Assembly: GCA_020975725.1 (NCBI GenBank)
Contig: QXJR01000016.1
Span: 372,001-436,000, forward strand
DNA: 64,000 nt
DNA from: Picocystis sp. L7
Lineage: Eukaryota > Chlorophyta > Picocystophyceae > Picocystales > Picocystaceae
Direction of reading: 5' to 3'
Under the pieces are notes generated by a model. It did no database searches. It saw nothing but the letters and a program-made list of their open reading frames with translations, and was not told where the DNA came from. Below, one piece after another: positions 9,980 to 63,069 of the stretch. Made by a program: the position numbers and the translations under genes. Every line of letters starts with the position of its first letter. Within the stretch, counting starts at the first letter, position 1.

Positions 9980-10708
9980 TCATTTATTGACAATGGGCTG
10001 GGCGCGTTTTTGGAAGATCTCATCTAGCTTCTCCTCTGGACATTCGGGGAAAGCCCCATGCAGGATCACTCGAATCAGCGCCGCGTCTTCCTGGTCGATA
10101 TCTTCTCCCTGTTTCTTCCCCAGGCAGCACTCGCAGATTGCTTCCAGCGCCACCGCCACGCGTGCCGTTGCACCCACCTTTAATCCGTCTGTGCTGATGT
10201 ATTTGTATTTTTGCATGGTCTCGGTCACGGAGGCGTTGATCCCTCCGATCTCGTACTCCAGATCTGCGCTGTACCTCAGCCTCCTGGCCGACGTGATGAT
10301 TTCTTTCTTCGGCACGATTCCTACGCCCACCGCGGCCATCCAGCAGCAGAACTGGGCGTACTTCACGTTGGCTCGGTTCCTCCCGTGCTTTTGCTCCAGT
10401 TCGTAGAGCGCCACCGACCACTCCCTTTCGGTGCTGTCGAAGAGCTTCCTGCAGTACGTCTGGTACGCCATCACGTCTTTTCCGAACGTCTCGTCTGGAG
10501 AGAGGATCCTCGAGAGCAGTCCGATGACTGGCAACGAACCTTGCGCTTTCTTCAACAGCTGTGCGATCGGATTTTTCCCCTCTTCGCCTCCTCCGGCTCC
10601 CTGGGCGCGCTTCTCCACACGTCTCGCCTTGTGCCTCCCTCCGAGCGCCTTCCTGGGCCTTCCCAGACCCCCGACAGGTCCGTGCCATGGCGCCATGCGC
10701 GTCGCCAT
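9980..10708 (-). CDS. Probable plastid protein resembling photosystem I assembly factor PSA3
   Basis: 242 aa, no intron needed. The first 45 or so residues are rich in Arg, Ala and Gly (RPRKALGGRHKARRVEKRAQ) and look like a chloroplast transit peptide. The mature part begins PIAQLLKKAQGSLPVIGLLSRI and is largely helical, with EREWSVALYELEQKHG, CCWMAAVGVGIVPKKEII, SARRLRYSADLEYEIGG and a C-terminal FPECPEEKLDEIFQKRA. This layout recalls plant PSA3 (pigment-defective 329), a stroma-facing factor for photosystem I accumulation. The match is from memory and is moderate; a conserved plastid protein of another role cannot be excluded. It is convergent with GCN5 (87 bp) and divergent from the TRF4 gene (258 bp). 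Confidence 0.5.
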   Translation of the reverse strand: MATRMAPWHGPVGGLGRPRKALGGRHKARRVEKRAQGAGGGEEGKNPIAQLLKKAQGSLPVIGLLSRILSPDETFGKDVMAYQTYCRKLFDSTEREWSVALYELEQKHGRNRANVKYAQFCCWMAAVGVGIVPKKEIITSARRLRYSADLEYEIGGINASVTETMQKYKYISTDGLKVGATARVAVALEAICECCLGKKQGEDIDQEDAALIRVILHGAFPECPEEKLDEIFQKRAQPIVNK

Positions 10709-15265: not shown

Positions 15266-15770
15266 CGGTTTATCTATTTGTAGCCAGGCTACAAATTAGC
15301 CAGTTTTTTCCTCTGCGGGATCAACCACCGTCCGTTCCATTCGAACCAAACAGCGAGGAGTAAATATACACTTTTGAACAAAAACATGCAGAGGAACAAG
15401 GATTCCTCCTCGTGTCTTCGAAATATTCGCTTGAACGATTCACCGATTCATCGATCGCCTGTCTCGAAAGCGACAACTGCCGCAGAGCGATTCCCGCTCC
15501 ATTGTGAGGCGAAGGGGGGGCACCCTTGGGTCTCACCGGAGGACAAGGAAACGACCAAGCCAAAACAACCAAAGGACTCATACATTGATCGACTTGCTGA
15601 GCCATTTCCGACGACTTTCCCGCCACAGACCACCGCGAAAGAACGCGAACACAGCCGGAAAAAAAAAAACGCACGTCGATCAACACGTCTCGGCAGCCTG
15701 TTCACACCCGCCAGCAGCAACCGAAAAGACAGCAGGCGCCGACCGTGGGTGTTGTTGCGGGCTGCATTTG
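15266..15770 (+). repeat. Left outer terminal inverted repeat
   Basis: Unique-sequence part of the left arm, inverted relative to 26033-26537 with constant coordinate sum, so no indels. Near its tip lies a perfect palindrome, ATTTGTAGCC-A-GGCTACAAAT, at 15276-15296, a good candidate transposase-binding or hairpin-forming site. A run of nine or more A's lies at about 15660-15669. Confidence 0.93.
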
Positions 15771-15773
15771 CGA

Positions 15774-18700
15774 CATCCAGGACAGCAGGTGACGGCATCG
15801 GACAGCCAGGTGGGCTGCTTTGGAGGCATCCAGGACAGCAGGTGACGGCATCGGACAGCCAGGTGGGCTGCTTTGGAGGCATCCAGGACAGCAGGTGACG
15901 GCATCGGACAGCCAGGTGGGCTGCTTTGGAGGCATCCAGGACAGCAGGTGACGGTATCGGACAGCCAGGTGGGCTGCTTTGGAGGCATCCAGGACAGCAG
16001 GTGACGGCATCGGACAGCCAGGTGGGCTGCTTTGGAGGCTTCCAGGACAGCAGGTGACGGCATCGGACAGCCAGGTGGGCTGCTTTGGAGGCATCCAGGA
16101 CAGCAGGTGACGGCATCGGACAGCCAGGTGGGCTGCTTTGGAGGCATCCAGGACAGCAGGTGACGGCATCGGACAGCCAGGTGGGCTGCTTTGGAGGCAT
16201 CCAGGACAGCAGGTGACGGTATCGGACAGCCAGGTGGGCTGCTTTGGAGGCATCCAGGACAGCAGGTGACGGCATCGGACAGCCAGGTGGGCTGCTTTGG
16301 AGGCTTCCAGGACAGCAGGTGACGGCATCGGACAGCCAGGTGGGCTGCTTTGGAGGCATCCAGGACAGCAGGTGACGGCATCGGACAGCCAGGTGGGCTG
16401 CTTTGGAGGCATCCAGGACAGCAGGTGACGGCATCGGACAGCCAGGTGGGCTGCTTTGGAGGCATCCAGGACAGCAGGTGACGGCATCGGACAGCCAGGT
16501 GGGCTGCTTTGGAGGCTTCCAGGACAGCAGGTGACGGCATCGGACAGCCAGGTGGGCTGCTTTGGAGGCATCCAGGACAGCAGGTGACGGCATCGGACAG
16601 CCAGGTGGGCTGCTTTGGAGGCTTCCAGGACAGCAGGTGACGGCATCGGACAGCCAGGTGGGCTGCTTTGGAGGCATCCAGGACAGCAGGTGACGGTATC
16701 GGACAGCCAGGTGGGCTGCTTTGGAGGCATCCAGGACAGCAGGTGACGGCATCGGACAGCCAGGTGGGCTGCTTTGGAGGCTTCCAGGACAGCAGGTGAC
16801 GGCATCGGACAGCCAGGTGGGCTGCTTTGGAGGCATCCAGGACAGCAGGTGACGGCATCGGACAGCCAGGTGGGCTGCTTTGGAGGCATCCAGGACAGCA
16901 GGTGACGGCATCGGACAGCCAGGTGGGCTGCTTTGGAGGCATCCAGGACAGCAGGTGACGGCATCGGACAGCCAGGTGGGCTGCTTTGGAGGCATCCAGG
17001 ACAGCAGGTGACGGCATCGGACAGCCAGGTGGGCTGCTTTGGAGGCTTCCAGGACAGCAGGTGACGGCATCGGACAGCCAGGTGGGCTGCTTTGGAGGCT
17101 TCCAGGACAGCAGGTGACGGCATCGGACAGCCAGGTGGGCTGCTTTGGAGGCTTCCAGGACAGCAGGTGACGGCATCGGACAGCCAGGTGGGCTGCTTTG
17201 GAGGCTTCCAGGACAGCAGGTGACGGCATCGGACAGCCAGGTGGGCTGCTTTGGAGGCTTCCAGGACAGCAGGTGACGGCATCGGACAGCCAGGTGGGCT
17301 GCTTTGGAGGCTTCCAGGACAGCAGGTGACGGCATCGGACAGCCAGGTGGGCTGCTTTGGAGGCATCCAGGACAGCAGGTGACGGTATCGGACAGCCAGG
17401 TGGGCTGCTTTGGAGGCATCCAGGACAGCAGGTGACGGTATCGGACAGCCAGGTGGGCTGCTTTGGAGGCATCCAGGACAGCAGGTGACGGCATCGGACA
17501 GCCAGGTGGGCTGCTTTGGAGGCATCCAGGACAGCAGGTGACGGTATCGGACAGCCAGGTGGGCTGCTTTGGAGGCATCCAGGACAGCAGGTGACGGCAT
17601 CGGACAGCCAGGTGGGCTGCTTTGGAGGCATCCAGGACAGCAGGTGACGGCATCGGGCAGCCAGGTGGGCTGGTTTGGAGGCTTCCAGGACAGCAGGTGA
17701 CGGCATCGGACAGCCAGGTGGGCTGCTTTGGAGGCATCCAGGACAGCAGGTGACGGTATCGGACAGCCAGGTGGGCTGCTTTGGAGGCTTCCAGGACAGC
17801 AGGTGACGGCATCGGACAGCCAGGTGGGCTGCTTTGGAGGCATCCAGGACAGCAGGTGACGGCATCGGACAGCCAGGTGGGCTGCTTTGGAGGCATCCAG
17901 GACAGCAGGTGACGGCATCGGACAGCCAGGTGGGCTGCTTTGGAGGCATCCAGGACAGCAGGTGACGGCATCGGACAGCCAGGTGGGCTGCTTTGGAGGC
18001 TTCCAGGACAGCAGGTGACGGCATCGGACAGCCAGGTGGGCTGCTTTGGAGGCATCCAGGACAGCAGGTGACGGTATCGGACAGCCAGGTGGGCTGCTTT
18101 GGAGGCATCCAGGACAGCAGGTGACGGTATCGGACAGCCAGGTGGGCTGCTTTGGAGGCATCCAGGACAGCAGGTGACGGCATCGGACAGCCAGGTGGGC
18201 TGCTTTGGAGGCATCCAGGACAGCAGGTGACGGTATCGGACAGCCAGGTGGGCTGCTTTGGAGGCATCCAGGACAGCAGGTGACGGCATCGGACAGCCAG
18301 GTGGGCTGCTTTGGAGGCATCCAGGACAGCAGGTGACGGCATCGGGCAGCCAGGTGGGCTGGTTTGGAGGCTTCCAGGACAGCAGGTGACGGCATCGGAC
18401 AGCCAGGTGGGCTGCTTTGGAGGCATCCAGGACAGCAGGTGACGGTATCGGACAGCCAGGTGGGCTGCTTTGGAGGCTTCCAGGACAGCAGGTGACGGCA
18501 TCGGACAGCCAGGTGGGCTGCTTTGGAGGCATCCAGGACAGCAGGTGACGGCATCGGACAGCCAGGTGGGCTGCTTTGGAGGCATCCAGGACAGCAGGTG
18601 ACGGCATCGGACAGCCAGGTGGGCTGCTTTGGAGGCATCCAGGACAGCAGGTGACGGCATCGGACAGCCAGGTGGGCTGCTTTGGAGGCATCCAGGACAG

Positions 18701-20407
18701 CAGGTGACGGTATCGGACAGCCAGGTGGGCTGCTTTGGAGGCATCCAGGACAGCAGGTGACGGCATCGGACAGCCAGGTGGGCTGCTTTGGAGGCATCCA
18801 GGACAGCAGGTGACGGTATCGGACAGCCAGGTGGGCTGCTTTGGAGGCATCCAGGACAGCAGGTGACGGTATCGGACAGCCAGGTGGGCTGCTTTGGAGG
18901 CTTCCAGGACAGCAGGTGACGGCATCGGACAGCCAGGTGGGCTGCTTTGGAGGCATCCAGGACAGCAGGTGACGGCATCGGACAGCCAGGTGGGCTGCTT
19001 TGGAGGCATCCAGGACAGCAGGTGACGGCATCGGACAGCCAGGTGGGCTGCTTTGGAGGCATCCAGGACAGCAGGTGACGGCATCGGACAGCCAGGTGGG
19101 CTGCTTTGGAGGCTTCCAGGACAGCAGGTGACGGCATCGGACAGCCAGGTGGGCTGCTTTGGAGGCATCCAGGACAGCAGGTGACGGTATCGGACAGCCA
19201 GGTGGGCTGCTTTGGAGGCATCCAGGACAGCAGGTGACGGCATCGGGCAGCCAGGTGGGCTGGTTTGGAGGCTTCCAGGACAGCAGGTGACGGCATCGGA
19301 CAGCCAGGTGGGCTGCTTTGGAGGCATCCAGGACAGCAGGTGACGGTATCGGACAGCCAGGTGGGCTGCTTTGGAGGCTTCCAGGACAGCAGGTGACGGC
19401 ATCGGACAGCCAGGTGGGCTGCTTTGGAGGCATCCAGGACAGCAGGTGACGGCATCGGACAGCCAGGTGGGCTGCTTTGGAGGCATCCAGGACAGCAGGT
19501 GACGGCATCGGACAGCCAGGTGGGCTGCTTTGGAGGCATCCAGGACAGCAGGTGACGGCATCGGACAGCCAGGTGGGCTGCTTTGGAGGCTTCCAGGACA
19601 GCAGGTGACGGCATCGGACAGCCAGGTGGGCTGCTTTGGAGGCATCCAGGACAGCAGGTGACGGTATCGGACAGCCAGGTGGGCTGCTTTGGAGGCATCC
19701 AGGACAGCAGGTGACGGTATCGGACAGCCAGGTGGGCTGCTTTGGAGGCATCCAGGACAGCAGGTGACGGCATCGGACAGCCAGGTGGGCTGCTTTGGAG
19801 GCATCCAGGACAGCAGGTGACGGTATCGGACAGCCAGGTGGGCTGCTTTGGAGGCATCCAGGACAGCAGGTGACGGCATCGGACAGCCAGGTGGGCTGCT
19901 TTGGAGGCTTCCAGGACAGCAGGTGACGGCATCGGGCAGCCAGGTGGGCTGGTTTGGAGGCTTCCAGGACAGCAGGTGACGGCATCGGACAGCCAGGTGG
20001 GCTGCTTTGGAGGCATCCAGGACAGCAGGTGACGGTATCGGACAGCCAGGTGGGCTGCTTTGGAGGCTTCCAGGACAGCAGGTGACGGCATCGGACAGCC
20101 AGGTGGGCTGCTTTGGAGGCTTCCAGGACAGCAGGTGACGGCATCGGACAGCCAGGTGGGCTGCTTTGGAGGCATCCAGGACAGCAGGTGACGGCATCGG
20201 ACAGCCAGGTGGGCTGCTTTGGAGGCATCCAGGACAGCAGGTGACGGCATCGGACAGCCAGGTGGGCTGCTTTGGAGGCATCCAGGACAGCAGGTGACGG
20301 TATCGGACAGCCAGGTGGGCTGCTTTGGAGGCATCCAGGACAGCAGGTGACGGCATCGGACAGCCAGGTGGGCTGCTTTGGAGGCTTCCAGGACAGCAGG
20401 TGACGGT
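15774..20407 (+). repeat. Left-arm array of a 53-bp repeat, about 87 copies
   Basis: Each unit opens ATCCAGGACAGCAGGTGACG and closes GGGCTGCTTTGGAGGC. Units differ at a few diagnostic positions: GGCATC or GGTATC, GGCATCC or GGCTTCC, and a rare double variant GGGCAGCC with GGCTGGTTTGG. That rare variant occurs at 17655, 18344, 19245 and 19934, spaced by exactly 13, 17 and 13 units, showing block duplication within the array. The minus strand reads through without stops in all three frames because the unit lacks stops and 53 is not a multiple of 3; these frames are not considered genes. Confidence 0.96.
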
Positions 20408-20441: not shown

Positions 20442-22793
20442 ATGGAGCAAAGTTTACTCCATATTGGGCCTGTTGGCTTCCCACAGGGCCCTTGGTCTAC
20501 GGCTGAGGGGGCTTTGTGTGAAGTGAACACATTTTTAAGTTTGTGTGAAGATGGTAAATCGTGGGTTCGGTTTGGTGGGTCGATACCGGCTACAAAAAAA
20601 TCTGGACAAAGGAAGAAAATCTTGTGTCGCAGAAGTGGCAACCGCCCCTCTCAAGCCCATATACGGCGAACAACAACTCAATGTAATGGTTGTCCCTATG
20701 GGTTCATCGTTGAGGAACGTGATGGCAAATGGTACTTGAAACGTTTTATTTCCCTAGTTCACAACCATGAATTGTTCAAGGAGGATCATGCGGGTGAATT
20801 GCGGGTAATACCCGCGGAACGGACCATTCCCAATGAAGTATTGGATTATGGGCAATCCTTGTTACGATCGGGTATGCGGATGCGAGATATACATGTGAGC
20901 TTACAACAAATGATGAAAGACAAAGGAGAAACACCAATGTGGACATACAAGGATGTTTGTAACAAGTTGGCACCTTCTTTGGGGGAAAAAGCAAGAGATT
21001 GTAGTGACTTTCTAAATCTACTTCGCAACCGTCATGATAGCAAGTCGTGGAACATTCATTGCGATAATGAAGGAAGATTGTCGAGGGCATTCTTCACCCT
21101 CGAGGAAGGTAAAGAGGCGTGGATCAAAGCTTCGAGTTCGCGGGTTCTTCTTTATGATACTAGTCATGCCACGAATAGACATGGGATGAAGCTTGGGTGT
21201 TTTTGTACAACTAATGCCAATGGGATGACGGTCATTGTTGCTTGCTCTTTGCTCGTGCAAGAGACCGTTGAAGATTTTGAGTGGGTTTTCAAATCCCTCG
21301 AGGATGCTTCAAATAGTCATGCACCCCGTGTGGTATTGACAGATGGTGACCAAGCGATGGCATATGCATTGAAGAGTACATGGCCGGAAGTAACTCATTT
21401 GCTATGCCTATGGCACTTTGCACAAAACGTGGTGAAGAACTTGAAGCCGATTCTTGGGAATTCATGGTCCACATTTCGCAAGTTGTTCTGGGAGATAGCA
21501 ATGGACTCGGATGCCCGGTCAATCGAATCATTTGAGAGAGATTTTGAACAGCTCAAGGAGCTTGTTTCGAAGGTTGTAGCAGAGAGGGCCAACAAGGGTG
21601 GAAAAAGTGCCAAAGGTACATCTTTCGAAGATCACAATGATTGGAAAACGTCCCAAGTAGAGGCCCCACTCGATGAAGGGACATACCAAGCAAACGACAA
21701 ATCAATGGGCTCTTCAAGTATGCCTTCTAAAAAGTGGACGACGACACAAAAAGCAACAAGGTACTTAGATATGATGTATGCAAAAAGGAGACAATGGGCT
21801 AGTAGATGGACTTGGCAACATTTCACTCAAGGGGCTCATTCCACTCAACGGTCAGAATCTATACACGCTGCCATCAAGGGGTTTCTTTCCTCTCGGAGTT
21901 CGTTAACTCACTTGTTGAACAAGTTGTCAGAATACGCCAATGAGAAAATGAGTGAAAATTATATGCGTGTTCTACATGGGAGACTATTTCAAGCTAGCCA
22001 GATTTTGCATTCACCTCTTCTTGATAGTGCGGCTGATTTCATCACTCCATTTGCATGGCGTCATCTGAGCGGGCAACTAAACCAAGCACAATATTACCTT
22101 GTGAGTAAAGAAGGTGGGATGGCAAGTGAACAATATCATGTTCAAAGAATTCGTACAAATTCAACTCACAATGAGCCAAATAGTGTCCGTATGGAGGGTG
22201 CTAATGAAGCTACTGAGCAAACCATTGAAACTACCAATTCTTTGGATGCGGAGCTAGGAATATCATCAAGATTGGACAGCCGCTCAACTTCCCTTGGGAG
22301 ATGTTCATGCCAATATAGCTTAAACATGGGCTTGCCTTGTAGGCATATGTTGGCTCTCTATATTCACAAGCAAATCTTCTCATTCAAAGGTGATGAATTC
22401 AATGAAAATTGGAAGCTTGAATGCAACCAACGAACATTGAATGCATATAAAGACTTTTACTCAACAAGCAATGCTCCAAATGTTGAGTTATTGGCCATTA
22501 GAGAGAAAGAATTGCAAACAAAAGAACAAGTTTATGTAGCAATCCAACAAAAGGCCAAATATGTATGTGAGCTGGCATCATGTGTGAATGATGCAAGCAC
22601 TACCGATATCGTACTAAGGGAACTTGACAAACTTGCCGCCACCATAGTAGAAAAACACTCATCGCTTGGGTCACCCCCTAACGTTCCAATCCATGCGCAA
22701 GGAGCATGCCAAATGTTAAACCCTCCATCGGTACGTGGCAAGGGGAGACCACAGCAAAAAAGGCGGAGGCCATGTACGGAGATTCACAAGTAG
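20442..22793 (+). CDS. FAR1/MULE-family transposase
   Basis: 783 aa from the first ATG, which lies 35 bp after the last 53-bp repeat unit; the frame continues upstream into the array without an ATG. Domains in order: a FAR1 / WRKY-GCM1-type zinc-binding DNA-binding domain (about 40-140) with TQCNGCPYGF and VHNHEL; the MULE transposase domain with acidic residues in LLYDTSHATNRHGM (near 239), VVLTDGDQAMAYAL (near 301) and QRSESIHAAIKG (near 471); and a C-terminal SWIM zinc finger, CSCQYSLNMGLPCRHMLAL (near 620-640). All key motifs are present and the frame is uninterrupted, so the enzyme may be active. Land-plant FHY3/FAR1 light-signalling factors derive from this family, but the position inside intact terminal repeats marks this copy as a real transposase. 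It catalyses cut-and-paste movement. Confidence 0.95.
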   Translation: MEQSLLHIGPVGFPQGPWSTAEGALCEVNTFLSLCEDGKSWVRFGGSIPATKKSGQRKKILCRRSGNRPSQAHIRRTTTQCNGCPYGFIVEERDGKWYLKRFISLVHNHELFKEDHAGELRVIPAERTIPNEVLDYGQSLLRSGMRMRDIHVSLQQMMKDKGETPMWTYKDVCNKLAPSLGEKARDCSDFLNLLRNRHDSKSWNIHCDNEGRLSRAFFTLEEGKEAWIKASSSRVLLYDTSHATNRHGMKLGCFCTTNANGMTVIVACSLLVQETVEDFEWVFKSLEDASNSHAPRVVLTDGDQAMAYALKSTWPEVTHLLCLWHFAQNVVKNLKPILGNSWSTFRKLFWEIAMDSDARSIESFERDFEQLKELVSKVVAERANKGGKSAKGTSFEDHNDWKTSQVEAPLDEGTYQANDKSMGSSSMPSKKWTTTQKATRYLDMMYAKRRQWASRWTWQHFTQGAHSTQRSESIHAAIKGFLSSRSSLTHLLNKLSEYANEKMSENYMRVLHGRLFQASQILHSPLLDSAADFITPFAWRHLSGQLNQAQYYLVSKEGGMASEQYHVQRIRTNSTHNEPNSVRMEGANEATEQTIETTNSLDAELGISSRLDSRSTSLGRCSCQYSLNMGLPCRHMLALYIHKQIFSFKGDEFNENWKLECNQRTLNAYKDFYSTSNAPNVELLAIREKELQTKEQVYVAIQQKAKYVCELASCVNDASTTDIVLRELDKLAATIVEKHSSLGSPPNVPIHAQGACQMLNPPSVRGKGRPQQKRRRPCTEIHK

Positions 22794-22910: not shown

Positions 22911-25900
22911 GCAGCCCACCTGGCTGTCCGATGCCGTCACCTGCTGTCCTGGATGCCTCCAAAGCAGCCCACCTGGCTGTCCGATACCGTCACCTGCTGT
23001 CCTGGATGCCTCCAAAGCAGCCCACCTGGCTGTCCGATGCCGTCACCTGCTGTCCTGGAAGCCTCCAAAGCAGCCCACCTGGCTGTCCGATGCCGTCACC
23101 TGCTGTCCTGGAAGCCTCCAAAGCAGCCCACCTGGCTGTCCGATGCCGTCACCTGCTGTCCTGGAAGCCTCCAAAGCAGCCCACCTGGCTGTCCGATGCC
23201 GTCACCTGCTGTCCTGGAAGCCTCCAAAGCAGCCCACCTGGCTGTCCGATGCCGTCACCTGCTGTCCTGGATGCCTCCAAAGCAGCCCACCTGGCTGTCC
23301 GATACCGTCACCTGCTGTCCTGGATGCCTCCAAAGCAGCCCACCTGGCTGTCCGATGCCGTCACCTGCTGTCCTGGATGCCTCCAAAGCAGCCCACCTGG
23401 CTGTCCGATGCCGTCACCTGCTGTCCTGGAAGCCTCCAAAGCAGCCCACCTGGCTGTCCGATACCGTCACCTGCTGTCCTGGATGCCTCCAAAGCAGCCC
23501 ACCTGGCTGTCCGATGCCGTCACCTGCTGTCCTGGAAGCCTCCAAAGCAGCCCACCTGGCTGCCCGATGCCGTCACCTGCTGTCCTGGATGCCTCCAAAG
23601 CAGCCCACCTGGCTGTCCGATGCCGTCACCTGCTGTCCTGGATGCCTCCAAAGCAGCCCACCTGGCTGTCCGATACCGTCACCTGCTGTCCTGGATGCCT
23701 CCAAAGCAGCCCACCTGGCTGTCCGATGCCGTCACCTGCTGTCCTGGAAGCCTCCAAAGCAGCCCACCTGGCTGTCCGATACCGTCACCTGCTGTCCTGG
23801 ATGCCTCCAAAGCAGCCCACCTGGCTGTCCGATGCCGTCACCTGCTGTCCTGGAAGCCTCCAAAGCAGCCCACCTGGCTGTCCGATGCCGTCACCTGCTG
23901 TCCTGGATGCCTCCAAAGCAGCCCACCTGGCTGTCCGATGCCGTCACCTGCTGTCCTGGAAGCCTCCAAAGCAGCCCACCTGGCTGTCCAATACCGTCAC
24001 CTGCTGTCCTGGATGCCTCCAAAGCAGCCCACCTGGCTGTCCGATGCCGTCACCTGCTGTCCTGGATGCCTCCAAAGCAGCCCACCTGGCTGTCCGATGC
24101 CGTCACCTGCTGTCCTGGATGCCTCCAAAGCAGCCCACCTGGCTGTCCGATACCGTCACCTGCTGTCCTGGATGCCTCCAAAGCAGCCCACCTGGCTGTC
24201 CGATGCCGTCACCTGCTGTCCTGGAAGCCTCCAAAGCAGCCCACCTGGCTGTCCGATGCCGTCACCTGCTGTCCTGGATGCCTCCAAAGCAGCCCACCTG
24301 GCTGTCCGATGCCGTCACCTGCTGTCCTGGAAGCCTCCAAAGCAGCCCACCTGGCTGTCCAATACCGTCACCTGCTGTCCTGGATGCCTCCAAAGCAGCC
24401 CACCTGGCTGTCCGATGCCGTCACCTGCTGTCCTGGATGCCTCCAAAGCAGCCCACCTGGCTGTCCGATGCCGTCACCTGCTGTCCTGGATGCCTCCAAA
24501 GCAGCCCACCTGGCTGTCCGATACCGTCACCTACTGTCCTGGATGCCTCCAAAGCAGCCCACCTGGCTGTCCGATACCGTCACCTGCTGTCCTGGATGCC
24601 TCCAAAGCAGCCCACCTGGCTGTCCGATGCCGTCACCTGCTGTCCTGGAAGCCTCCAAAGCAGCCCACCTGGCTGTCCGATGCCGTCACCTGCTGTCCTG
24701 GATGCCTCCAAAGCAGCCCACCTGGCTGTCCGATGCCGTCACCTGCTGTCCTGGATGCCTCCAAAGCAGCCCACCTGGCTGTCCGATGCCGTCACCTGCT
24801 GTCCTGGATGCCTCCAAAGCAGCCCACCTGGCTGTCCGATACCGTCACCTGCTGTCCTGGATGCCTCCAAAGCAGCCCACCTGGCTGTCCGATACCGTCA
24901 CCTGCTGTCCTGGATGCCTCCAAAGCAGCCCACCTGGCTGTCCGATGCCGTCACCTGCTGTCCTGGATGCCTCCAAAGCAGCCCACCTGGCTGTCCGATA
25001 CCGTCACCTGCTGTCCTGGAAGCCTCCAAAGCAGCCCACCTGGCTGTCCGATGCCGTCACCTGCTGTCCTGGAAGCCTCCAAAGCAGCCCACCTGGCTGT
25101 CCGATGCCGTCACCTGCTGTCCTGGATGCCTCCAAAGCAGCCCACCTGGCTGTCCGATGCCGTCACCTGCTGTCCTGGATGCCTCCAAAGCAGCCCACCT
25201 GGCTGTCCGATACCGTCACCTGCTGTCCTGGATGCCTCCAAAGCAGCCCACCTGGCTGTCCGATACCGTCACCTGCTGTCCTGGATGCCTCCAAAGCAGC
25301 CCACCTGGCTGTCCGATACCGTCACCTGCTGTCCTGGATGCCTCCAAAGCAGCCCACCTGGCTGTCCGATGCCGTCACCTGCTGTCCTGGAAGCCTCCAA
25401 AGCAGCCCACCTGGCTGTCCGATGCCGTCACCTGCTGTCCTGGATGCCTCCAAAGCAGCCCACCTGGCTGTCCGATGCCGTCACCTGCTGTCCTGGAAGC
25501 CTCCAAAGCAGCCCACCTGGCTGTCCGATGCCGTCACCTGCTGTCCTGGATGCCTCCAAAGCAGCCCACCTGGCTGTCCGATACCGTCACCTGCTGTCCT
25601 GGATGCCTCCAAAGCAGCCCACCTGGCTGTCCGATGCCGTCACCTGCTGTCCTGGATGCCTCCAAAGCAGCCCACCTGGCTGTCCGATGCCGTCACCTGC
25701 TGTCCTGGATGCCTCCAAAGCAGCCCACCTGGCTGTCCGATGCCGTCACCTGCTGTCCTGGAAGCCTCCAAAGCAGCCCACCTGGCTGTCCGATGCCGTC
25801 ACCTGCTGTCCTGGATGCCTCCAAAGCAGCCCACCTGGCTGTCCGATACCGTCACCTGCTGTCCTGGATGCCTCCAAAGCAGCCCACCTGGCTGTCCGAT

Positions 25901-26028
25901 GCCGTCACCTGCTGTCCTGGATGCCTCCAAAGCAGCCCACCTGGCTGTCCGATGCCGTCACCTGCTGTCCTGGATGCCTCCAAAGCAGCCCACCTGGCTG
26001 TCCGATGCCGTCACCTGCTGTCCTGGAT
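22911..26028 (-). repeat. Right-arm array of the same 53-bp repeat, inverted, about 59 copies
   Basis: Reverse complement of the left-arm repeat with the same variant positions. It is 28 or so units shorter than the left array, so arm lengths differ although the outer termini match exactly; array length therefore changes independently of the termini. One unit at about 23563 has the GGGCAGCC-type variant. Confidence 0.96.
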
Positions 26029-26032
26029 GTCG

Positions 26033-26537
26033 CAAATGCAGCCCGCAACAACACCCACGGTCGGCGCCTGCTGTCTTTTCGGTTGCTGCTGGCGGGTGTG
26101 AACAGGCTGCCGAGACGTGTTGATCGACGTGCGTTTTTTTTTTTCCGGCTGTGTTCGCGTTCTTTCGCGGTGGTCTGTGGCGGGAAAGTCGTCGGAAATG
26201 GCTCAGCAAGTCGATCAATGTATGAGTCCTTTGGTTGTTTTGGCTTGGTCGTTTCCTTGTCCTCCGGTGAGACCCAAGGGTGCCCCCCCTTCGCCTCACA
26301 ATGGAGCGGGAATCGCTCTGCGGCAGTTGTCGCTTTCGAGACAGGCGATCGATGAATCGGTGAATCGTTCAAGCGAATATTTCGAAGACACGAGGAGGAA
26401 TCCTTGTTCCTCTGCATGTTTTTGTTCAAAAGTGTATATTTACTCCTCGCTGTTTGGTTCGAATGGAACGGACGGTGGTTGATCCCGCAGAGGAAAAAAC
26501 TGGCTAATTTGTAGCCTGGCTACAAATAGATAAACCG
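26033..26537 (-). repeat. Right outer terminal inverted repeat
   Basis: Exact inverted counterpart of 15266-15770, ending GGCTACAAATAGATAAACCG. It includes the mirror of the tip palindrome at 26507-26527. Confidence 0.93.
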
Positions 26538-29453: not shown

Positions 29454-31079
29454 TCAGTATGTACTACGCAACAAGCGCTCAATTTCGTCGTTCGCCTGAG
29501 CTTGTACTTGCATATTCTCTTGCAGCTCTTCTACTTCTTGGAGCTTCATGAGTTCTTCCTCGATTCCTCTCGCCGTTCCCACGATGCTTGCAGTGGATGC
29601 ATCTCCCAGTTCTACTTCAATCTCTATCATGTTAATCAGCCGCGCGTAGCTGTCCAAAAGTTGCAGCAATTTGGAGAGCCTTTCTTCCACCCCAGACCTT
29701 GCGCTGGCTAGTATGCTCATCCTTGTGTCGTAAGCCCCAGGATCCCCGACCGCATCTATTTTGTTTTGCAGTTGCCAGTATCTCGCAAGTTTCCGTACAT
29801 CCTCTGAAGCACTCTCTGTTATCTCGGCTAATTTTTCCATCAGCTGATCGTGTTGGGACAAAAGCTGCTGCCTCGCTGCAGAAACCGATACTGCCCCAGA
29901 TGGCAGTTTCTTCAGCTCTGGCAAGATGTACGCGTTTCCCAGGACCGCGCTCCCTACGACTGCAGCTGCTGCCCCAGCAGAAAGAAGAGGCAGGGAGGGA
30001 TCAATCAAGGAGGATGCAGCGTCCCCGCCAGCAGCGAGCACTGCAACCGGCATCACCCAGGAGGGTATGCCGGGAGTCTTTCCTGAGGGCGGAGGTCGAA
30101 GCAGCTCCACCTCTTTCCCAAGATCGTGGTTCACCAGAAGCATCGGCTCACCGGCACGCTTTCCGGGTGCCCGGGCCGCGTAAAATTTCCCTTTCTTGGC
30201 ATTGGTAGGGGCACCAATGCAGGTGACACGCTGCCCTTCTTGCGCTGGAACATCCGCCGTAGCTGTGGCCACGCGGAAGCTCCTTGCTGACGCATCGGGC
30301 GCCTTGACCACGATTTCATGAATGGCCTCTATGTGCGGATCCTTCCAAGCACCTATCATCCTCGCTCCTTTGAGCAGCAGATTCTCTTGCCAGCCCAGCA
30401 CCTCCGATTTCACTTGGACCACATCACCCGAGAAGAGCTCGTACTCGTGCCTGCACCCGCTGCAGCTGGCTTTGGAGCATCCTTCTTGCGGTTTCACGAC
30501 CGCAAGTGGCAGCGTCGGGCAGAGCGGACATCGCACAATGTTCCCGAATGGCACTTCTTCCCCTTTCGGAACGCCTCTTCTTCTGACGTCGGCAAGGACG
30601 CCGGTGGCATCGTTCACTCGGAGGGCCTGGCACATCCCTTTGATCACCAGTTCCACCGTCGAGAGCGTGCATCCTGGCCATTTCAAGACGCCGTTTCGAC
30701 TCCACGCGTGCGGATGGCTGCTCGAGACGGTGCGCATGCACGCGTACATGGACAGGACCAGCTCGTGGTTCCCACGCTGCAGGGCCGTTTCGATGATTTC
30801 GGTGCACAGCAGCTCGTCCAGCACGGGTTTCTCGCCTTCCGGATCTTCCTCCATGGCGTCCCAATGCGCCTGCAGCTTCATCAGCGCCTCGTTCGCGTCC
30901 TTGCAGGACACCACGCTGCGCACCAACGCCGCGTCCGACACGCCAGGACGCGCGGACGCGCTTCTCGCGCGCCACCGGCTCCTCGTGTGCCTTCTCGCGG
31001 TTCGTTTCTGGCGCCACGGCTCCCCTTGCGTCCCTTTCCCGCCCGTCCAGGCGCGTTTCGGCGTCGTTTTCTGCGCCAT
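29454..31079 (-). CDS. Probable plastid membrane protein of unknown function with Cys-rich motif and coiled-coil C-terminus
   Basis: 541 aa from the first ATG. The first 60 residues are Arg/Thr/Ala-rich ([10 protein letters not shown]) like a transit peptide. Residues about 60-180 are helical and repeat-like. A four-cysteine motif follows, [11 protein letters not shown] then [16 protein letters not shown], probably a zinc ribbon. A middle domain contains [19 protein letters not shown] and [17 protein letters not shown], followed by a hydrophobic Ala/Gly/Leu region (about 340-390) that could cross or enter a membrane. The last 140 residues are a long coiled coil. I recognise the general type as conserved in the green lineage but cannot name it and assign no function. 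It is divergent from the GalE gene. Confidence 0.6.
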
Positions 31080-37361: not shown

Positions 37362-37870
37362 CTTGTAGGCCGAGGCCGCGGTCCAATCGACGCGGGTTCG
37401 CCACGGATCGAACCATACACGTGGCGTTGAGTCGGGACCACCGCTCCATGCGTCGGACCAAAGCGCGGCTCGCCTTGCATCGGTGCCAAAACCTTTCGAC
37501 CCGAATCATGATGTTGTGCTTTGTGTCGTCGAGGTGCTTGTCCGCCGTCGGGACGACGGACAGACGAAGTTCGACGTGTTCCTTCCACCCGTCCGTTCCT
37601 TCCCCGCGGACCTGCTTCTCGGACCCCGTCCGCGAGAATCTTCTCTCTGGATCGCGTCGGCCTCCACGCCTTTCCTCACGTGAGGCATTGCTACCATGAC
37701 GTCACCCCCTTCGTTCCCCCCGAATCCCCCGGGTAGGGTGCCAGGTGGCACCCCGAGACGTGGACCGATCCACCGGGACCACAAAAAGGGGGGGGGAGAA
37801 AGAACGAGTTCGGGTTCATTGGAGACGTGGTTCCATCGCGAAGCGCCTTGGACGGTGCGGCGTGGCGGCG
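37362..37870. other. Degraded 5' part of the Fanzor element and ABCG upstream region
   Basis: The first 200 bp contain broken protein-like sequence on the minus strand that probably belongs to the Fanzor gene. From about 37700 the sequence becomes the GC-rich ABCG upstream region with GGGGGG and AAAGGGGGGG runs. I could not find clear terminal repeats for the element. Confidence 0.4.
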
Positions 37871-50479: not shown

Positions 50480-51490
50480 ATGAACGAAGAGACGGATGGA
50501 AAGGCTCCCGTGCCGGTGACCGTGTTCACGGGATACCTGGGAGCGGGGAAAACGTCCATCATCAAGAACTTGGTCCGGCGGCTGCCCAAGGACTACAAGG
50601 TGGCCTGGCTCAAGAACGAATTCGGCGACATGGAGGTCGATTCAGAGGTGGCCAAGGACAGCCACATCGCCGTGAAAGAAATCATGAACGGTTGCCTGTG
50701 CTGCGTGCTGGTGGGCCAGATGAACGAAGCCCTCAAGGAGATTGTGGAAAATCAAAATCCATCCAGGATCATCATCGAAACATCCGGATCTGCCTATCCA
50801 GCCCCCATCGCCTGGGAAATACGAAAGATGGACTTCCTTCAGCTGGATGGTATCGTGACAGTGATCGATGCTCTCAATTTTTCGGGTTACGAAGATAAAT
50901 CCTACACGGCCAGAATTCAATCCCAGTATACAGACTTAATCGTGGTGAACAAGCACGAGCTCGTGGAACCTGGAAAGCTGGAGACAACACTGGATGATGT
51001 GCATGATCTCAATCCTACTACCCCCAAGATACACGCAACAGGACCGGATGGGATCGTGGAACCTGGCCTAGTGTTCGGGCTGGATACCAAACTTTTTGCT
51101 TCTGCTGAAGAGGTGGAAGTGCTGGAGAGTGGCAAGGACGATCAACATCATGGGAACGAGGTTGATATCCTTCAAGCGAAACTCACCAGTCTGAAAGTTT
51201 TTGACCGGAAGAAGTTTGAAGACTTCCTTGGATCGCTCGATCCAGAGGACGTGTACCGCGCCAAGGGTTTGGTCTGTCTCACCGGGATGGATGTGGATGC
51301 AGACTCAAAATTCGTGCTCTTCAATTTTGTCGGAGGGCGTCACACGTTCGATCCTATCAATTCCTACGAGGGGAATCCAAAGCTAATCTTCATGGGCACA
51401 GACCTTTTTCGCTACAAAAAGAAGTTAATTGCATTCCTAGAAGTGGAAACAGAGTGTGTCAAATTGATTCCGCGGAACCATTCTCACTGA
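50480..51490 (+). CDS. CobW/ZNG (COG0523) family GTPase, putative zinc metallochaperone
   Basis: 336 aa. The G3E GTPase domain comes first: Walker A GYLGAGKTS, NEFGDMEVD as switch region, GCLCC as the metal-binding CxCC of the family, IIIETSGSAYPAPI as Walker B region, and VVNKHELV as the guanine-specificity motif. A linker contains a His pair (DDQHHGNE), and the C-terminal CobW domain (about 235-330) has VYRAKGLVCLTG and FVLFNFVGGRHTF. This subgroup, with GCLCCVLVGQM, is shared with fungi and algae. Related ZNG1 proteins deliver zinc to methionine aminopeptidase; metal and client here are inferred only. It starts 3 nt after the small ORF and is convergent with adenosine kinase (82 bp). Confidence 0.9.
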   Translation: MNEETDGKAPVPVTVFTGYLGAGKTSIIKNLVRRLPKDYKVAWLKNEFGDMEVDSEVAKDSHIAVKEIMNGCLCCVLVGQMNEALKEIVENQNPSRIIIETSGSAYPAPIAWEIRKMDFLQLDGIVTVIDALNFSGYEDKSYTARIQSQYTDLIVVNKHELVEPGKLETTLDDVHDLNPTTPKIHATGPDGIVEPGLVFGLDTKLFASAEEVEVLESGKDDQHHGNEVDILQAKLTSLKVFDRKKFEDFLGSLDPEDVYRAKGLVCLTGMDVDADSKFVLFNFVGGRHTFDPINSYEGNPKLIFMGTDLFRYKKKLIAFLEVETECVKLIPRNHSH

Positions 51491-54798: not shown

Positions 54799-55971
54799 CT
54801 AAGAGTACTGCACTTTTCGCAGCCCTCCCCTCATCGAAACCTGGGATGGAGAGAGAGACGGTTTAGGAAATGGCTCGGGCGATGGCTCGGGCGATGGCTC
54901 AGGCGATGGTTTTGGAGATGGCTCAGGTGATGGTTTTGGAGATGGCTCAGGCGACGGCTCAGGCGATGGTTTTGGAGATGGCTCGGGCGATGGCTCAGGC
55001 GACGGCTCAGGCGAGGGTTTTGGAGATGGCTCGGGCGATGGCTCAGGCGATGGCTCAGGCGATGGTTTTGGGGATGGCTCGGGCGATGGCTCCGGCGATG
55101 GCTCAGGCGACGGCTCGGGCGATGGCTCAGGCGATGGTTTCGGAGATGGTTTTGGAGATGGCTCAGGCGACGGCTCAGGCGATGGTTTTGGGGATGGCTC
55201 CGGTGACGGCTCGGGAGACGGCTCAGGAGATGGTTTTGGAGATGGCTCGGGCGATGGCTCAGGCGATGGCGTAGGTGAGGGTGACGGAGGTGGAGGTGGA
55301 GGCTTTGCTTTCACAGTGCGCACCCAAACTTCATTGTGCCTGTCAAAGAAACGATAGGGAGGATCATATCCGGCAAAGAAATAGTGGTCCGTGTCATATA
55401 GGACCCCTTCTGCATCCATCGCAGCTTCCAAAGTCTTCACGTTTGCATCAACGCTTGCATCTTTTGCCCATCCTCCAAATGCTGTCACATACACTGTCAT
55501 TTCAGGTAGTTCCTCAATGTAGATGCCCGCCGTGGTTGGAGCTGGTGGGTCCACATCCTGATACATGCTAGGAAGGAAAAACGACAACGTTATATTGCTC
55601 AAGGCTGTGGGTGTCGATCCAGGTGTGACGTAGCTCAGCACTGGTGTGGCCATCGGGATCTTTGCCTTGGCCGTGTTCTTCCCTGAGATGTATTTGTACA
55701 GTCGGTAGAATCCTGCGTACTGGGCATCAGTGAAATGCGTCTCCAGGCAATCTGTACTGACCCATTTTCCAGGAGCGTACTTGCGCACTTCGTACGTGGA
55801 CGTTGTGTTGAGTACTTTGTACTTGGGACAATCGGTGTCGTGGCAGAACCAGGGCTTGATCCATTTGTCCACGCTGCCCTCTTCGACCGTTCCCGCGGTG
55901 AGGAACGGCGTGCGGACGCACCAGGTGAACGGAAGTGCCAGCAGCAGCACCAGGCCGGCCTTCATGGTCAT
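54799..55971 (-). CDS. Secreted SOUL-domain (heme-binding) protein with Ser-Pro-Glu/Lys repeat tail
   Basis: 390 aa from ATG at 55971. A signal peptide ([17 protein letters not shown]) precedes a SOUL/p22HBP domain (about 38-235) with [55 protein letters not shown] and a C-terminal [16 protein letters not shown]. Six prolines follow, then about 130 residues of alternating SPEP and SPKP units to near the end. Ser-Pro repeats of this kind are typical of hydroxyproline-rich extracellular proteins of green algae (pherophorin-like). Family members bind heme or other tetrapyrroles; binding here is inferred. It lies in tandem, same strand, downstream of the first AztD-like gene. Confidence 0.9.
54866..55275. 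repeat. 12-bp tandem repeat encoding SPEP/SPKP units
   Basis: Repeats of GGCTCAGGCGAT and variants (GGCTCGGGCGAT, GGTTTTGGAGAT) on the plus strand, about 34 copies, within the SOUL gene. The period is a multiple of 3, so copy-number change keeps the frame. Confidence 0.95.
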
Positions 55972-56514: not shown

Positions 56515-57897
56515 CTACTCGTCATCGCCGTTGCCGTGATCGTGGTCGTGATCATGCTCATGGTCATCATCATCATGGTCGTGGTCGTGGTCATGGTCGT
56601 CATCACCATGCTCATGATCGTGGTCATGGTCATGGTCATCATCATCATCATCATGGTCATGGTCGTGGTCATGGTCATGGTCATCATCATCATGGTCATG
56701 GTCGTGGTCGTCATCATCATGGTCGTGATCGTGGTCATGCTCATCGTCGTCATCAAACTCCCAGCCAACCACGGTCATGCTTTGAGGAATGCCGTCTGCA
56801 TCGAAAGTCATCTTTGTATCAAGGGTCTCATCATCCAGCACGTAAATCTCACCACTTGAGTGGTCGCTGACAACAACTCTGCCTGGTGCAAATGCCAGGA
56901 CTGGTCGGACTCCAGATTCGTACGGGGCGATCAGCTCAACACTGTTTGTAATGTTGCCGTCACTTGGAGAAATTGTGTGGACTTGACCGTCCATGGTAAT
57001 CGCTACAATCGAGCGGCCATCCTTCGTGAAACCAAAGGCCGAGACATCGATGGGCACTGGGAAGAGTTCCATTGATCTCTCTGCCACATCAATCTTAGAG
57101 AGAGCAAGGGGACCATGGTTGCCAATGAAGAAGTCCCACCTGGGGTGCTTGATCACTGTTCCAACACGCCCTTCCTCTCCATCTGGGCTGGGGATGTTGA
57201 ATGTTTCCATGGGTGAGTCAGAGTTATCCACAACCAGCACACCGTCACCACAGCCAAGGACAACTAAGTCACCATCCGAAGCAGATCCATGAAGCAGCGG
57301 GCAGTCATGCACCTCCTGCAAAATGGTAGAGTCCATGTCGACAAGATCTACACCTTTCGGAAGGCTCTCGCCATCATCAGCGATGCTGATAAGTACTTGA
57401 TCATCGAGAGGTACAGCAACTCCATGATGAGCTGGACCATTTGCGACAACATCCACAGCTGGGCTATCTTGTCTAATCTCACTCAGCCTCATCAAGCTTG
57501 CATCACCTGCCCCATCGTTGTACACGGCAATCACACCGTCGTTCTCCACGAAGTGCGTAGGCACGCCTCCTTCAATATCAAAGTCGAAAACAACAGGATC
57601 CCTCATGTATGCATGGAAGTGGTCCCCATGGTCATCGATCCATAAACCTCCGTCAATTGCATTGGTCACATTCTGCTCTCTTTGGACAGCAAATGCATAG
57701 CGTCCATCCCCCACAGTGTACAGCCTTGCGGGGCCGCTCAGCTCCAGTGTCTCGACTTCATCTCCATCTTCCAGATTCAAAACGCGGATGGACCCACTCT
57801 CGGAATCCGCAAGAAGAAGGCGGTGTGCCCCATCTGCTGCACAGAGCTGGAGGCCAAGTGCAATGCACGATACGAGAAGCGCTCGGAAGTAGCTCAT
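56515..57897 (-). CDS. AztD-like secreted beta-propeller zinc-binding protein with His-Asp tail, copy 1
   Basis: 460 aa from ATG at 57897; upstream codons to 58008 run past a TATA box and are excluded. A signal peptide (MSYFRALLVSCIALGLQLC) precedes a beta-propeller of about 350 aa. It opens HRLLLADSESGSIRVLNLED and contains NAIDGGLWIDDHGDHFHAY, GPAHHGVAVPL, LGCGDGVLVVD, FFIGNHGPLAL and RPVLAFAPGRVVVSDHSSG. This order and the DDHGDH and HHGVAV motifs match bacterial AztD, the periplasmic zinc chaperone of the AztABC importer. The last 80 or so residues are almost only His and Asp in alternating HDHD/DDDD blocks, a probable low-affinity zinc store. I infer extracellular or secretory-pathway zinc binding. 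Two zinc-deficiency-type palindromes lie upstream. Confidence 0.85.
   Translation of the reverse strand: MSYFRALLVSCIALGLQLCAADGAHRLLLADSESGSIRVLNLEDGDEVETLELSGPARLYTVGDGRYAFAVQREQNVTNAIDGGLWIDDHGDHFHAYMRDPVVFDFDIEGGVPTHFVENDGVIAVYNDGAGDASLMRLSEIRQDSPAVDVVANGPAHHGVAVPLDDQVLISIADDGESLPKGVDLVDMDSTILQEVHDCPLLHGSASDGDLVVLGCGDGVLVVDNSDSPMETFNIPSPDGEEGRVGTVIKHPRWDFFIGNHGPLALSKIDVAERSMELFPVPIDVSAFGFTKDGRSIVAITMDGQVHTISPSDGNITNSVELIAPYESGVRPVLAFAPGRVVVSDHSSGEIYVLDDETLDTKMTFDADGIPQSMTVVGWEFDDDDEHDHDHDHDDDDHDHDHDDDDHDHDHDHDHDDDDDDHDHDHDHEHGDDDHDHDHDHDDDDHEHDHDHDHGNGDDE
56525..56755. repeat. Hexanucleotide-like repeat coding the His-Asp tail of copy 1
   Basis: Imperfect ATGGTC/GTGGTC/ATCATC repeats on the plus strand, read on the minus strand as His-Asp codons (CAT/CAC and GAC/GAT). 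In frame, so length can vary freely. Confidence 0.92.
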
Positions 57898-57985: not shown

Positions 57986-57995
57986 GTATATATAT
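57986..57995 (-). promoter_or_regulatory. TATA box of the first AztD-like gene
   Basis: ATATATATAC on the minus strand, about 90 bp upstream of the ATG at 57897. It stands out against the GC-rich surroundings. Confidence 0.65.
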
Positions 57996-58023
57996 CCCTG
58001 CTGTCCACCCTTGGGGCAGTGAG

Positions 58024-58033
58024 GTGTCGTCAG
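58024..58033 (+). promoter_or_regulatory. Near-ZDRE motif GTGTCGTCAG
   Basis: Shares the 9-mer GTGTCGTCA with two of the motifs upstream of the second AztD-like gene. Two mismatches to RTGTCGACAY. Confidence 0.35.
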
Positions 58034-58066: not shown

Positions 58067-58076
58067 ATGTCGACAC
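58067..58076. promoter_or_regulatory. Perfect ZDRE-like palindrome ATGTCGACAC
   Basis: Matches RTGTCGACAY, the zinc-deficiency response element bound by group F bZIP factors (bZIP19/23) in land plants. It lies 170 bp upstream of the AztD-1 start codon and about 75 bp upstream of the TATA box. Function in this organism is inferred. Confidence 0.6.
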
Positions 58077-58208
58077 GGTTGGCCATCACCTGGTCCCTTC
58101 CACTGGAGGCTCCCCGGTGCTCGCCCCGGATGGGACACAACTGTGACTCGAAGATGCCAACCGACAGGAGAACCTGAAGGGTCGGCCCCTCCCCCCAGGT
58201 CGATCCGG

Positions 58209-58218
58209 ATGTCGACAT
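58209..58218. promoter_or_regulatory. Perfect ZDRE-like palindrome ATGTCGACAT
   Basis: Second exact RTGTCGACAY match, fully palindromic, 142 bp from the first and about 310 bp upstream of the start codon. I saw no third perfect match in the 64 kb. Confidence 0.6.
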
Positions 58219-61235: not shown

Positions 61236-62741
61236 TTAAGCAAACCATACGAATGCAACGAGACCTTGGAAGAGCGTGGTTGCAATCCTAACAACAAAGC
61301 GCCTACTTCCATCGTTGTGGCTGTCCTCACCACCGTCGTGATCATGATCGTGTTCATGGTCCTCACCATGGTCATGGTCATGGTCGTGATCATGGTCGTG
61401 TTCATCGCCCCCACCACCGTCGTGATCATGGTCGTGGTCATGGTCGTGGTCATGGTCCTCACCGTGGTCATGGTCATGGTCGTGATCATGGTCGTGTTCA
61501 TCGCCCCCACCACCGTCGTGATCATGGTCGTGATCATGGTCGTGGTCATGGTCGTGGTCATGGTCCTCACCATGGTCGTGATCATGGTCGTGTTCGTCGT
61601 TCTCATAACCAACAACAGCCATGCTTAATGGTATGCCATCCGCATCTATTGTTTGCAGTTCTGAGAGCGTCTTATCATCAAGCACATGTATGGCTCCATT
61701 GGTGTGATCACTTACAATGACTTTGTGAGGGGCAAAGGCAAGGGCGGGCCTTGTACCAGATTCATATGGAGCGATGAGATCAACACTGTTCATGATTTCA
61801 CCGTTCTCGGGTGAAATCCTCTGCACCTGTCCGTTTACCGTCACCGCAATAATTGCAACACCGTCGTTTGTGAAGCCGAATGCTCGTACAGCAACTGGAA
61901 CAGCAAACACCTCCATTGTTTGCGATTCTGGGTCGATTTTCGATATTCCTGTAGGGCCATGATTACCAATGAAGAAACTCCATTTGGGATGCGAATACAA
62001 GGTACCGACACGCCCAGAAGTGCCTTCTGGACTAGAAACCTTGTGGGTCTCCATGGGAGACTTTGAACTGTCCACAATCAAAACACCGTCACCACAACCA
62101 AGCGCTACTAATGATCCAGACGGTGCCTCACCATGAAGCAAAGGACATTCATGCATTGCTTGAAGAACTTCAGACGACATGGACCTGTGATCCACGCCCT
62201 TCGGAAGGCGTTCACCCTCATCAGCCACACTTATGAGTACATCTTCTCCAACAGCCACGGCCACGCCGTGATGGGCCGACCCTGATTCCACGGTATGCAT
62301 TGAAGGATTGACCTGCCGAATGTCGCTCGTCTTCATGATACTTGCTTCACCGGTGCCGTCGTTGAATATTACTACGTGGCCACCATGCTCCACGAAGTGT
62401 ATGGGGACTGCCCCTTCCACCTTGAATGGACGGATGCTAGGAGGTTCCTCATAGGGATGCATGTGGTCCCCATGGTCTTCGATCCAGACACCACCATCAA
62501 TGGCCTGCGAAGCGTTCGAATCAGTCTGTACTGCAAAGGCATGCCTGCCATCACTCAGTGCGTACACCCTCGCTGGGCCTTCCACCTCCAAAGTGGCAAC
62601 GTGACTTCCACCAGCAAGATCCAACACACGAATTTTTCCTGACTCGGAGTCGGCAACAAGTAGGCGGTGCTTCTCATATGCAAGACAATATTGCAGCCAC
62701 AGCGATATGATCGCGACCACAGTCTTGATACAGGAATTCAT
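61236..62741 (-). CDS. AztD-like secreted beta-propeller zinc-binding protein with His-Asp tail, copy 2
   Basis: 501 aa from ATG at 62741; a longer frame to 62813 has no signal-peptide character. The signal peptide is MNSCIKTVVAIISLWLQYCL. The propeller parallels copy 1 throughout: HRLLVADSESGKIRVLDL, DGGVWIEDHGDHMHPYEEPP, GSAHHGVAVAVGED, LVALGCGDGVLIVDSS, FFIGNHGPTGISKI, RPALAFAPHKVIVSDHTNG. DHGDHMHPYEEPP is even closer to bacterial AztD than copy 1. The tail of about 90 residues is a regular HDHDHD repeat with GEDHDHD and DGGGGDEHDHD spacers. Unlike copy 1 it ends in a hydrophobic stretch (IATTLFQGLVAFVWFA), which could be a membrane anchor or GPI-attachment signal. The two copies are tandem paralogues on the same strand, about 3.3 kb apart. 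Confidence 0.85.
   Translation of the reverse strand: MNSCIKTVVAIISLWLQYCLAYEKHRLLVADSESGKIRVLDLAGGSHVATLEVEGPARVYALSDGRHAFAVQTDSNASQAIDGGVWIEDHGDHMHPYEEPPSIRPFKVEGAVPIHFVEHGGHVVIFNDGTGEASIMKTSDIRQVNPSMHTVESGSAHHGVAVAVGEDVLISVADEGERLPKGVDHRSMSSEVLQAMHECPLLHGEAPSGSLVALGCGDGVLIVDSSKSPMETHKVSSPEGTSGRVGTLYSHPKWSFFIGNHGPTGISKIDPESQTMEVFAVPVAVRAFGFTNDGVAIIAVTVNGQVQRISPENGEIMNSVDLIAPYESGTRPALAFAPHKVIVSDHTNGAIHVLDDKTLSELQTIDADGIPLSMAVVGYENDEHDHDHDHGEDHDHDHDHDHDHDHDHDGGGGDEHDHDHDHDHDHGEDHDHDHDHDHDHDGGGGDEHDHDHDHDHDHGEDHEHDHDHDGGEDSHNDGSRRFVVRIATTLFQGLVAFVWFA
61320..61600. repeat. Hexanucleotide/minisatellite coding the His-Asp tail of copy 2
   Basis: ATGGTC/GTGGTC repeats arranged in larger blocks, each containing TCATCGCCCCCACCACCGTC (the DGGGGDE spacer). 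The block at 61382-61440 recurs at about 61466-61525. In frame on the minus strand. Confidence 0.93.
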
Positions 62742-62878: not shown

Positions 62879-62888
62879 ATGTCGTCAT
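62879..62888 (+). promoter_or_regulatory. Near-ZDRE motif ATGTCGTCAT
   Basis: One mismatch to RTGTCGACAY (A to T at position 7). 138 bp upstream of the copy 2 start. Confidence 0.4.
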
Positions 62889-62922
62889 GGGTTGGCAACC
62901 TTTCGTCCGCGTAGCTAGTCAG

Positions 62923-62932
62923 GTGTCGTCAT
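62923..62932 (+). promoter_or_regulatory. Near-ZDRE motif GTGTCGTCAT
   Basis: Same mismatch as the motif at 62879, 44 bp away. Confidence 0.4.
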
Positions 62933-63059
62933 GGATCCGCCTATGCTAACCGTCCCGCAAGTTCGGGGGCATTCCTTGTCTACTTAGGCGACCCCAACGC
63001 CCTGTCACGTTTGCGGGTCGCCCCAGCTGGGGAGGGGCGGGTGTGCAATGAGAAACGAG

Positions 63060-63069
63060 GTGTCGTCAT
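63060..63069 (+). promoter_or_regulatory. Near-ZDRE motif GTGTCGTCAT
   Basis: Identical 10-mer to 62923-62932, in context GAGGTGTCGTCA as at 58021. Confidence 0.4.

Follow-up and report, generated by a model that had tools for sequence, protein, structure and literature searches.

The window (the whole 64,000-nucleotide stretch of DNA that was analysed) carries two AztD-like genes, tandem paralogues on the minus strand. Upstream of each lie short sites that match the ZDRE, the zinc-deficiency element of land plants (RTGTCGACAY), or a variant of it, exactly or with one mismatch (Table 1). In land plants the ZDRE is bound by the bZIP19/23 regulators, which activate zinc-uptake genes at low zinc (PMC9643250, PMC8933713, both drawn on in excerpt).

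Table 1. The two AztD-like genes and the elements 5' of them (positions in the window)
Feature	Position	Strand	Remarks
Gene 1, AztD-like, 460 aa	56515..57897	-	hydrophobic N-terminus, Asp/His-rich tail
TATA-like ATATATATA	57987..57995	-	90-98 bp 5' of gene 1 ATG; read from the sequence
ZDRE-variant near-match, gene sense CTGACGACAC (as written, GTGTCGTCAG), one outer mismatch	58024-58033	-	127 bp 5' of gene 1 ATG; overlaps the common string TGACGACACCTC (58021-58032), joint span 58021..58033
Exact ZDRE ATGTCGACAC	58067..58076	+	170 bp 5' of gene 1 ATG
Exact ZDRE ATGTCGACAT	58209..58218	+	312 bp 5' of gene 1 ATG
Gene 2, AztD-like paralogue, 501 aa	61236..62741	-	Asp/His-rich tail, hydrophobic C-terminus
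Exact ZDRE variant, gene sense ATGACGACAT (forward strand, ATGTCGTCAT)	62879..62888	-	138 bp 5' of gene 2 ATG
Exact ZDRE variant ATGACGACAC (forward strand, GTGTCGTCAT)	62923-62932	-	182 bp 5' of gene 2 ATG; overlaps TGACGACACCT (62921-62931), joint span 62921..62932, minus
Exact ZDRE variant ATGACGACAC (forward strand, GTGTCGTCAT)	63060-63069	-	319 bp 5' of gene 2 ATG; overlaps TGACGACACCTC (63057-63068), joint span 63057..63069, minus

That an AztD-like gene lies downstream of the exact pair had been part of the original prediction, and gene 1 proves to be a true AztD homologue: it matches AztD of PDB 6cmk with an E-value of 9e-43 (phmmer), and the NCBIfam AztD model finds it with E 2.6e-65 (220.5 bits) and gene 2 with E 1.2e-69 (234.8 bits). 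Both scores lie under the NCBIfam NF038015 cut-off of 400 bits (a Devosia protein reaches 423.8); the propeller homology to AztD nevertheless runs over its length in both genes. Six histidines (H90, H93, H115, H157, H158 and H203) are invariant in all five aligned proteins, that is, in both genes and three bacterial homologues. By the alignment with 6cmk and comparison with the ligands that PMC6689063 (in part) names for the zinc sites of AztD, these six are provisionally assigned to zinc sites 1 and 2; the assignment was made by eye, His218 misfits the chain numbering, and the C-terminal His of AztD is left unplaced. The Asp of site 2, as given in the same excerpt, is replaced by His in both genes. 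We infer that the AztD-like proteins would capture zinc outside the cytoplasm. Gene 2 also has a hydrophobic stretch (61236-61300) after its Asp/His tail that gene 1 lacks, perhaps a membrane anchor. (A technical note: a structure prediction of gene 1 made from two sequences gave a mean pLDDT of 48.9 and was set aside.)

Relatives were sought in other DNA too. In viral contigs 34 stretches matched a pattern, none of them encoding a relative; among genome contigs, with patterns taken from the Asp/His tail and hence with poor recall, at least 598 stretches matched, with five loci among the matches listed, one of which (L005) matches in the tail alone. The homologue at the Devosia locus (L001) adjoins ORFs that resemble, to the eye, a zinc ABC importer. 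No zinc ABC importer was found among the window proteins scanned; the ABC transporter at 37871 is of another type.

The two exact RTGTCGACAY palindromes, reported beforehand at 58067 and 58209, are both present 5' of the gene 1 ATG (57897, minus strand), and they are the sole exact matches in the 64 kb. The chance rate first quoted for the motif, one per 262 kb, is right under even base composition; Markov models of orders 0-5 built on the whole window put the expectation at 0.07-0.30 per 64 kb, those of orders 0-4 with the locus left out put it at 0.15-0.28, and dinucleotide shuffles of the whole window (n=100) yield a mean of 0.29, with two or more sites in 2 of the 100. The core TGTCGACA occurs at 57336 as well, within the coding sequence of gene 1. 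The TATA-like stretch lies about 30 bp downstream of the closest gene 1 element.

Gene 2 brings the stronger part of the case, one that the original prediction did not mention: three exact RTGTCGTCAY sites in its upstream region (62879, 62923 and 63060). RTGTCGTCAY is the reverse complement of RTGACGACAY, which is how these sites read in the sense of the gene. A survey of the promoters of plant ZIP4/9/IRT3 orthologues (PMC5476651, in the portion at hand) names RTGT/ACGACAY as the commonest ZDRE variation, found in 17 of 76 plant motif sequences, with 54 others having no mismatch. We read that notation as RTG(T/A)CGACAY, and on this reading the gene 2 promoter holds a known plant ZDRE variant three times. 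All five TGTCGTCA cores of the window have the same orientation; one of them, at 59330, is intergenic between genes 1 and 2.

Taken together, strict and variant exact sites number five in the 64 kb, and all five fall in the two promoters. Markov models of orders 0-4 trained outside the locus predict 0.004-0.009 such sites in the two 350-bp promoters (700 bp), a comparison to be read with the knowledge that the variant was looked up only after the repeats had been noticed, and that sites in one promoter are perhaps not independent. Motif choice was controlled for by counting, in the repeat-masked window, every palindromic 8-mer (256 in all) flanked by R and Y: TGTCGACA is the only one of the 256 palindrome classes with a pair no more than 160 bp apart, and of 6144 single-substitution entries the sole distinct form with a triple in 200 bp is TGACGACA/TGTCGTCA, 5' of gene 2. 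In simulations (n=400, order 3, 53,806 bases) some palindrome pair within 160 bp appears in 41 of the 400, so that the pair by itself is striking only because its motif is the named one. Any variant triple appears in 2 of the 400, and in none does a palindrome pair occur together with a variant triple of the same palindrome. Exact sites occur in two of 22 chosen 400-bp upstream regions, those of the two AztD-like genes; three of the 20 regions without one have a one-mismatch match, namely those of an EMP70-like gene, of the transposase (inside its array) and of the ABC transporter. An excess of matches with two or fewer mismatches (177 against 82 expected) was left unused, many of them being units of two 53-bp arrays, and the idea that the sites are part of a larger dispersed repeat was dropped: the repeat search gives only families of 11-15 bases here.

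How alike are the two promoters? The proteins are 62% identical in full alignment, and 59% identical over 380 compared codons. Of 120 fourfold sites 87 differ, near the three quarters at which unrelated bases would differ, and they look saturated; differences at codon positions 1, 2 and 3 number 118, 83 and 237, the pattern of constrained coding sequence. Unselected sequence is thus expected to have diverged. The upstream regions indeed give no alignment outside short strings, and a global promoter alignment leaves the sites out of register. Their distances from the ATG are nonetheless similar (-127/-170/-312 at gene 1, -138/-182/-319 at gene 2): the gaps between them are 43/142 and 44/137, with a probability of about 0.0009 for three random sites per promoter, a figure that takes in the -127 near-match (58024), picked after it was seen, so that one of the six sites is inexact. 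Locally, the promoters match best in TGACGACACCTC, and that match couples the gene 1 site at -127 with the gene 2 site at -319; this shared 12-mer has, by itself, a null probability of 1-2%. The string TGACGACACCT has three copies in the window, all in these promoters. A matrix trained on gene 2 gives a weak cross-check: it ranks the sites of gene 1 high, yet level with unrelated matches at 37696, 21738, 42417, 37154 and 22055.

Could the pattern simply be accidental? Chance can point to the close pairs of some palindrome that arise in the simulations and to the two strict sites that shuffling yields now and then, but it is strongly disfavoured, and we regard it as exceedingly improbable: the combined pattern is never simulated, and five sites stand where less than a hundredth of one is expected. 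That the sites are leftovers of the gene duplication, kept from the ancestral promoter without selection, is a thought suggested by the tandem arrangement of the paralogues and by the like distances of their sites. It is nevertheless quite improbable, since with fourfold sites so changed and promoters that do not align, neutral 10-mers should have been lost; moreover, sites at like distances differ in form, yet each form is an allowed one. Homology of the promoters as the entire cause of their common sites is likewise disfavoured, the upstream regions being unalignable.

A more serious contender, though still an unlikely one, accepts the sites as functional and assigns them to a different regulator: a TGACG-type bZIP (a relative of CREB or TGA), or some non-bZIP protein reading TGACGACACCT, for which the signal would be something else than low zinc; the sites would then resemble the ZDRE by convergence. 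TGACG half-sites are bound by CREB/TGA-type bZIPs. This alternative draws on several points that also count against a ZDRE reading: a single substitution separates TGACGACA from the CRE palindrome TGACGTCA, so that it is equally close to it; the longer string TGACGACACCT, which three sites have in common, is foreign to the plant ZDRE; the CobW-type gene of the window (50480-51490) has neither an exact nor a one-mismatch site in the 400 bp upstream of it; and F-bZIPs are reported, in the part of PMC9643250 consulted, from land plants only. Against it stand the two full RTGTCGACAY palindromes of gene 1, which contain no TGACG half-site, the fit of the gene 2 sites to the plant variant as excerpted above, outer R and Y included, and the nature of the targets, which are homologues of a zinc metallochaperone.

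That functional bZIP-like elements lie 5' of these genes for predicted zinc proteins is well supported. The original prediction, which had linked the motif with a zinc protein, is borne out in part: the sites go beyond chance, they recur at the second AztD-like gene in the variant form of plants, and the histidines provisionally assigned to the zinc sites are kept in both proteins. Its further step, a bZIP19/23-type sensor at work in an alga, is conjecture. The best explanation, and a reasonably probable one, is that a ZDRE-class bZIP array 5' of both AztD-like genes serves as a low-zinc switch. The elements of this array would be TGTCGACA or TGACGACA, half-sites TGTC or TGAC joined at a central CG. 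Under zinc shortage the array, whose elements at gene 1 lie at least about 30 bp 5' of the TATA-like stretch, would be occupied by a dimeric bZIP, and this would turn on both AztD-like genes; the secreted proteins would then catch zinc outside the cytoplasm and pass it to an importer. Binding by a bZIP, low zinc as the signal, induction as the response, export of the proteins and transfer of zinc to an importer are all steps of a proposal, which we infer. No bZIP was found among the 24 of the 80 listed window ORFs that were scanned with Pfam. The broader proposition is more tentative, and we would place it somewhat short of probable: beyond land plants, a flagellated protist or alga would use the ZDRE code, together with a bZIP that senses zinc, to control secreted AztD-type chaperones (the switch being older than land plants or having evolved twice).

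The rest of the window gives some hints of what kind of genome this is. An ORF at 4849-6051 matches NME7/FAP67 nucleoside diphosphate kinases (E 5e-39). These kinases have a ciliary role. By this homology the ORF suggests a flagellated lineage and so speaks against a red alga; an intron-poor eukaryote is suggested by long open frames whose 5' ends are broken. A MULE transposase ORF (20442-22793) lies between arrays of 53-bp units at 15759-20406 and 22911-26044 (87.7 and 59.1 copies) in opposite orientation: the whole is a Mutator-like element whose inverted arms are tandem arrays. A full CRE, ATGACGTCAC (37696-37705), precedes the ABC transporter ORF (37871) by about 175 bp. Closer to the AztD-like genes, a second possible metal gene, that of the CobW/COG0523-type GTPase, lies some 5 kb from gene 1, and next to gene 1 is the gene of a SOUL haem-binding protein (54799-55971) that carries a long tail of PSPEPSP type; two CACGTG boxes (56223 and 56232), 9 bp apart, lie about 250 bp upstream of the SOUL gene. 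Open frames at 9980-10708 and 29454-31079 have no Pfam match (at 0.01) and no clear PDB match, and a search of the window for RNA families and tRNAs found none.

Among known systems, that of diatoms invites comparison by way of its genes. Two zinc/cobalt-responsive proteins of diatoms, ZCRP-A and ZCRP-B, one of COG0523 type and the other metal-binding and at the surface, rise at low zinc (PMC9010474, in the excerpt used here), and a CobW/COG0523-type gene is also present in this window; this gene has no ZDRE-type site in its 400 bp upstream. ZCRP-B itself was considered as a relative of the AztD-like genes and ruled out, since the same excerpt describes it as NikA-like. The AztD of the bacterial AztABCD system is like the proteins encoded here in its propeller and in the six invariant His, and His-rich tracts are known in bacterial AztD proteins too (PMC6689063, in part). 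Here, by contrast, the scores are below the cut-off, the site-2 Asp has become His and the Asp/His tails are long; the genes are a eukaryotic tandem pair, with a proposed eukaryotic element in place of Zur, and no zinc ABC partner is encoded among the window proteins scanned. In the literature library searched, AztD with algae turned up a single, unrelated paper and no work linking the two, and a proven ZDRE switch at these genes would offer a first candidate for the way in which a protist controls AztD-type zinc capture.

The closest comparison is with the ZDRE/F-bZIP regulon of land plants. The origin of that regulon has been tied to the move onto land (PMC9643250, PMC5476651), and two green algae yielded no F-bZIP (PMC5476651), as far as the portions of these papers drawn on here go; the 13 publications with RTGTCGACAY in the library searched are, judged by title, plant work only. 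Nothing in the window points to a land plant, the targets are AztD-like rather than ZIP or NAS genes, gene 2 has the variant form only, and three of the sites have a CCT flank. The resemblance is nonetheless detailed, so far as the excerpted plant work allows it to be judged: exact RTGTCGACAY at one gene, at the other the form that is the commonest variation at plant ZIP4/9/IRT3 orthologues, and at both at least two copies no more than a few hundred bp from the ATG of a zinc-related gene. The element is of a known type, the setting new. If the low-zinc switch is real, either the plant zinc-deficiency switch predates land plants or the same DNA code arose twice, and a ZDRE-type array at the zinc-chaperone genes of a non-plant eukaryote would make the land-plant origin of the switch directly testable.
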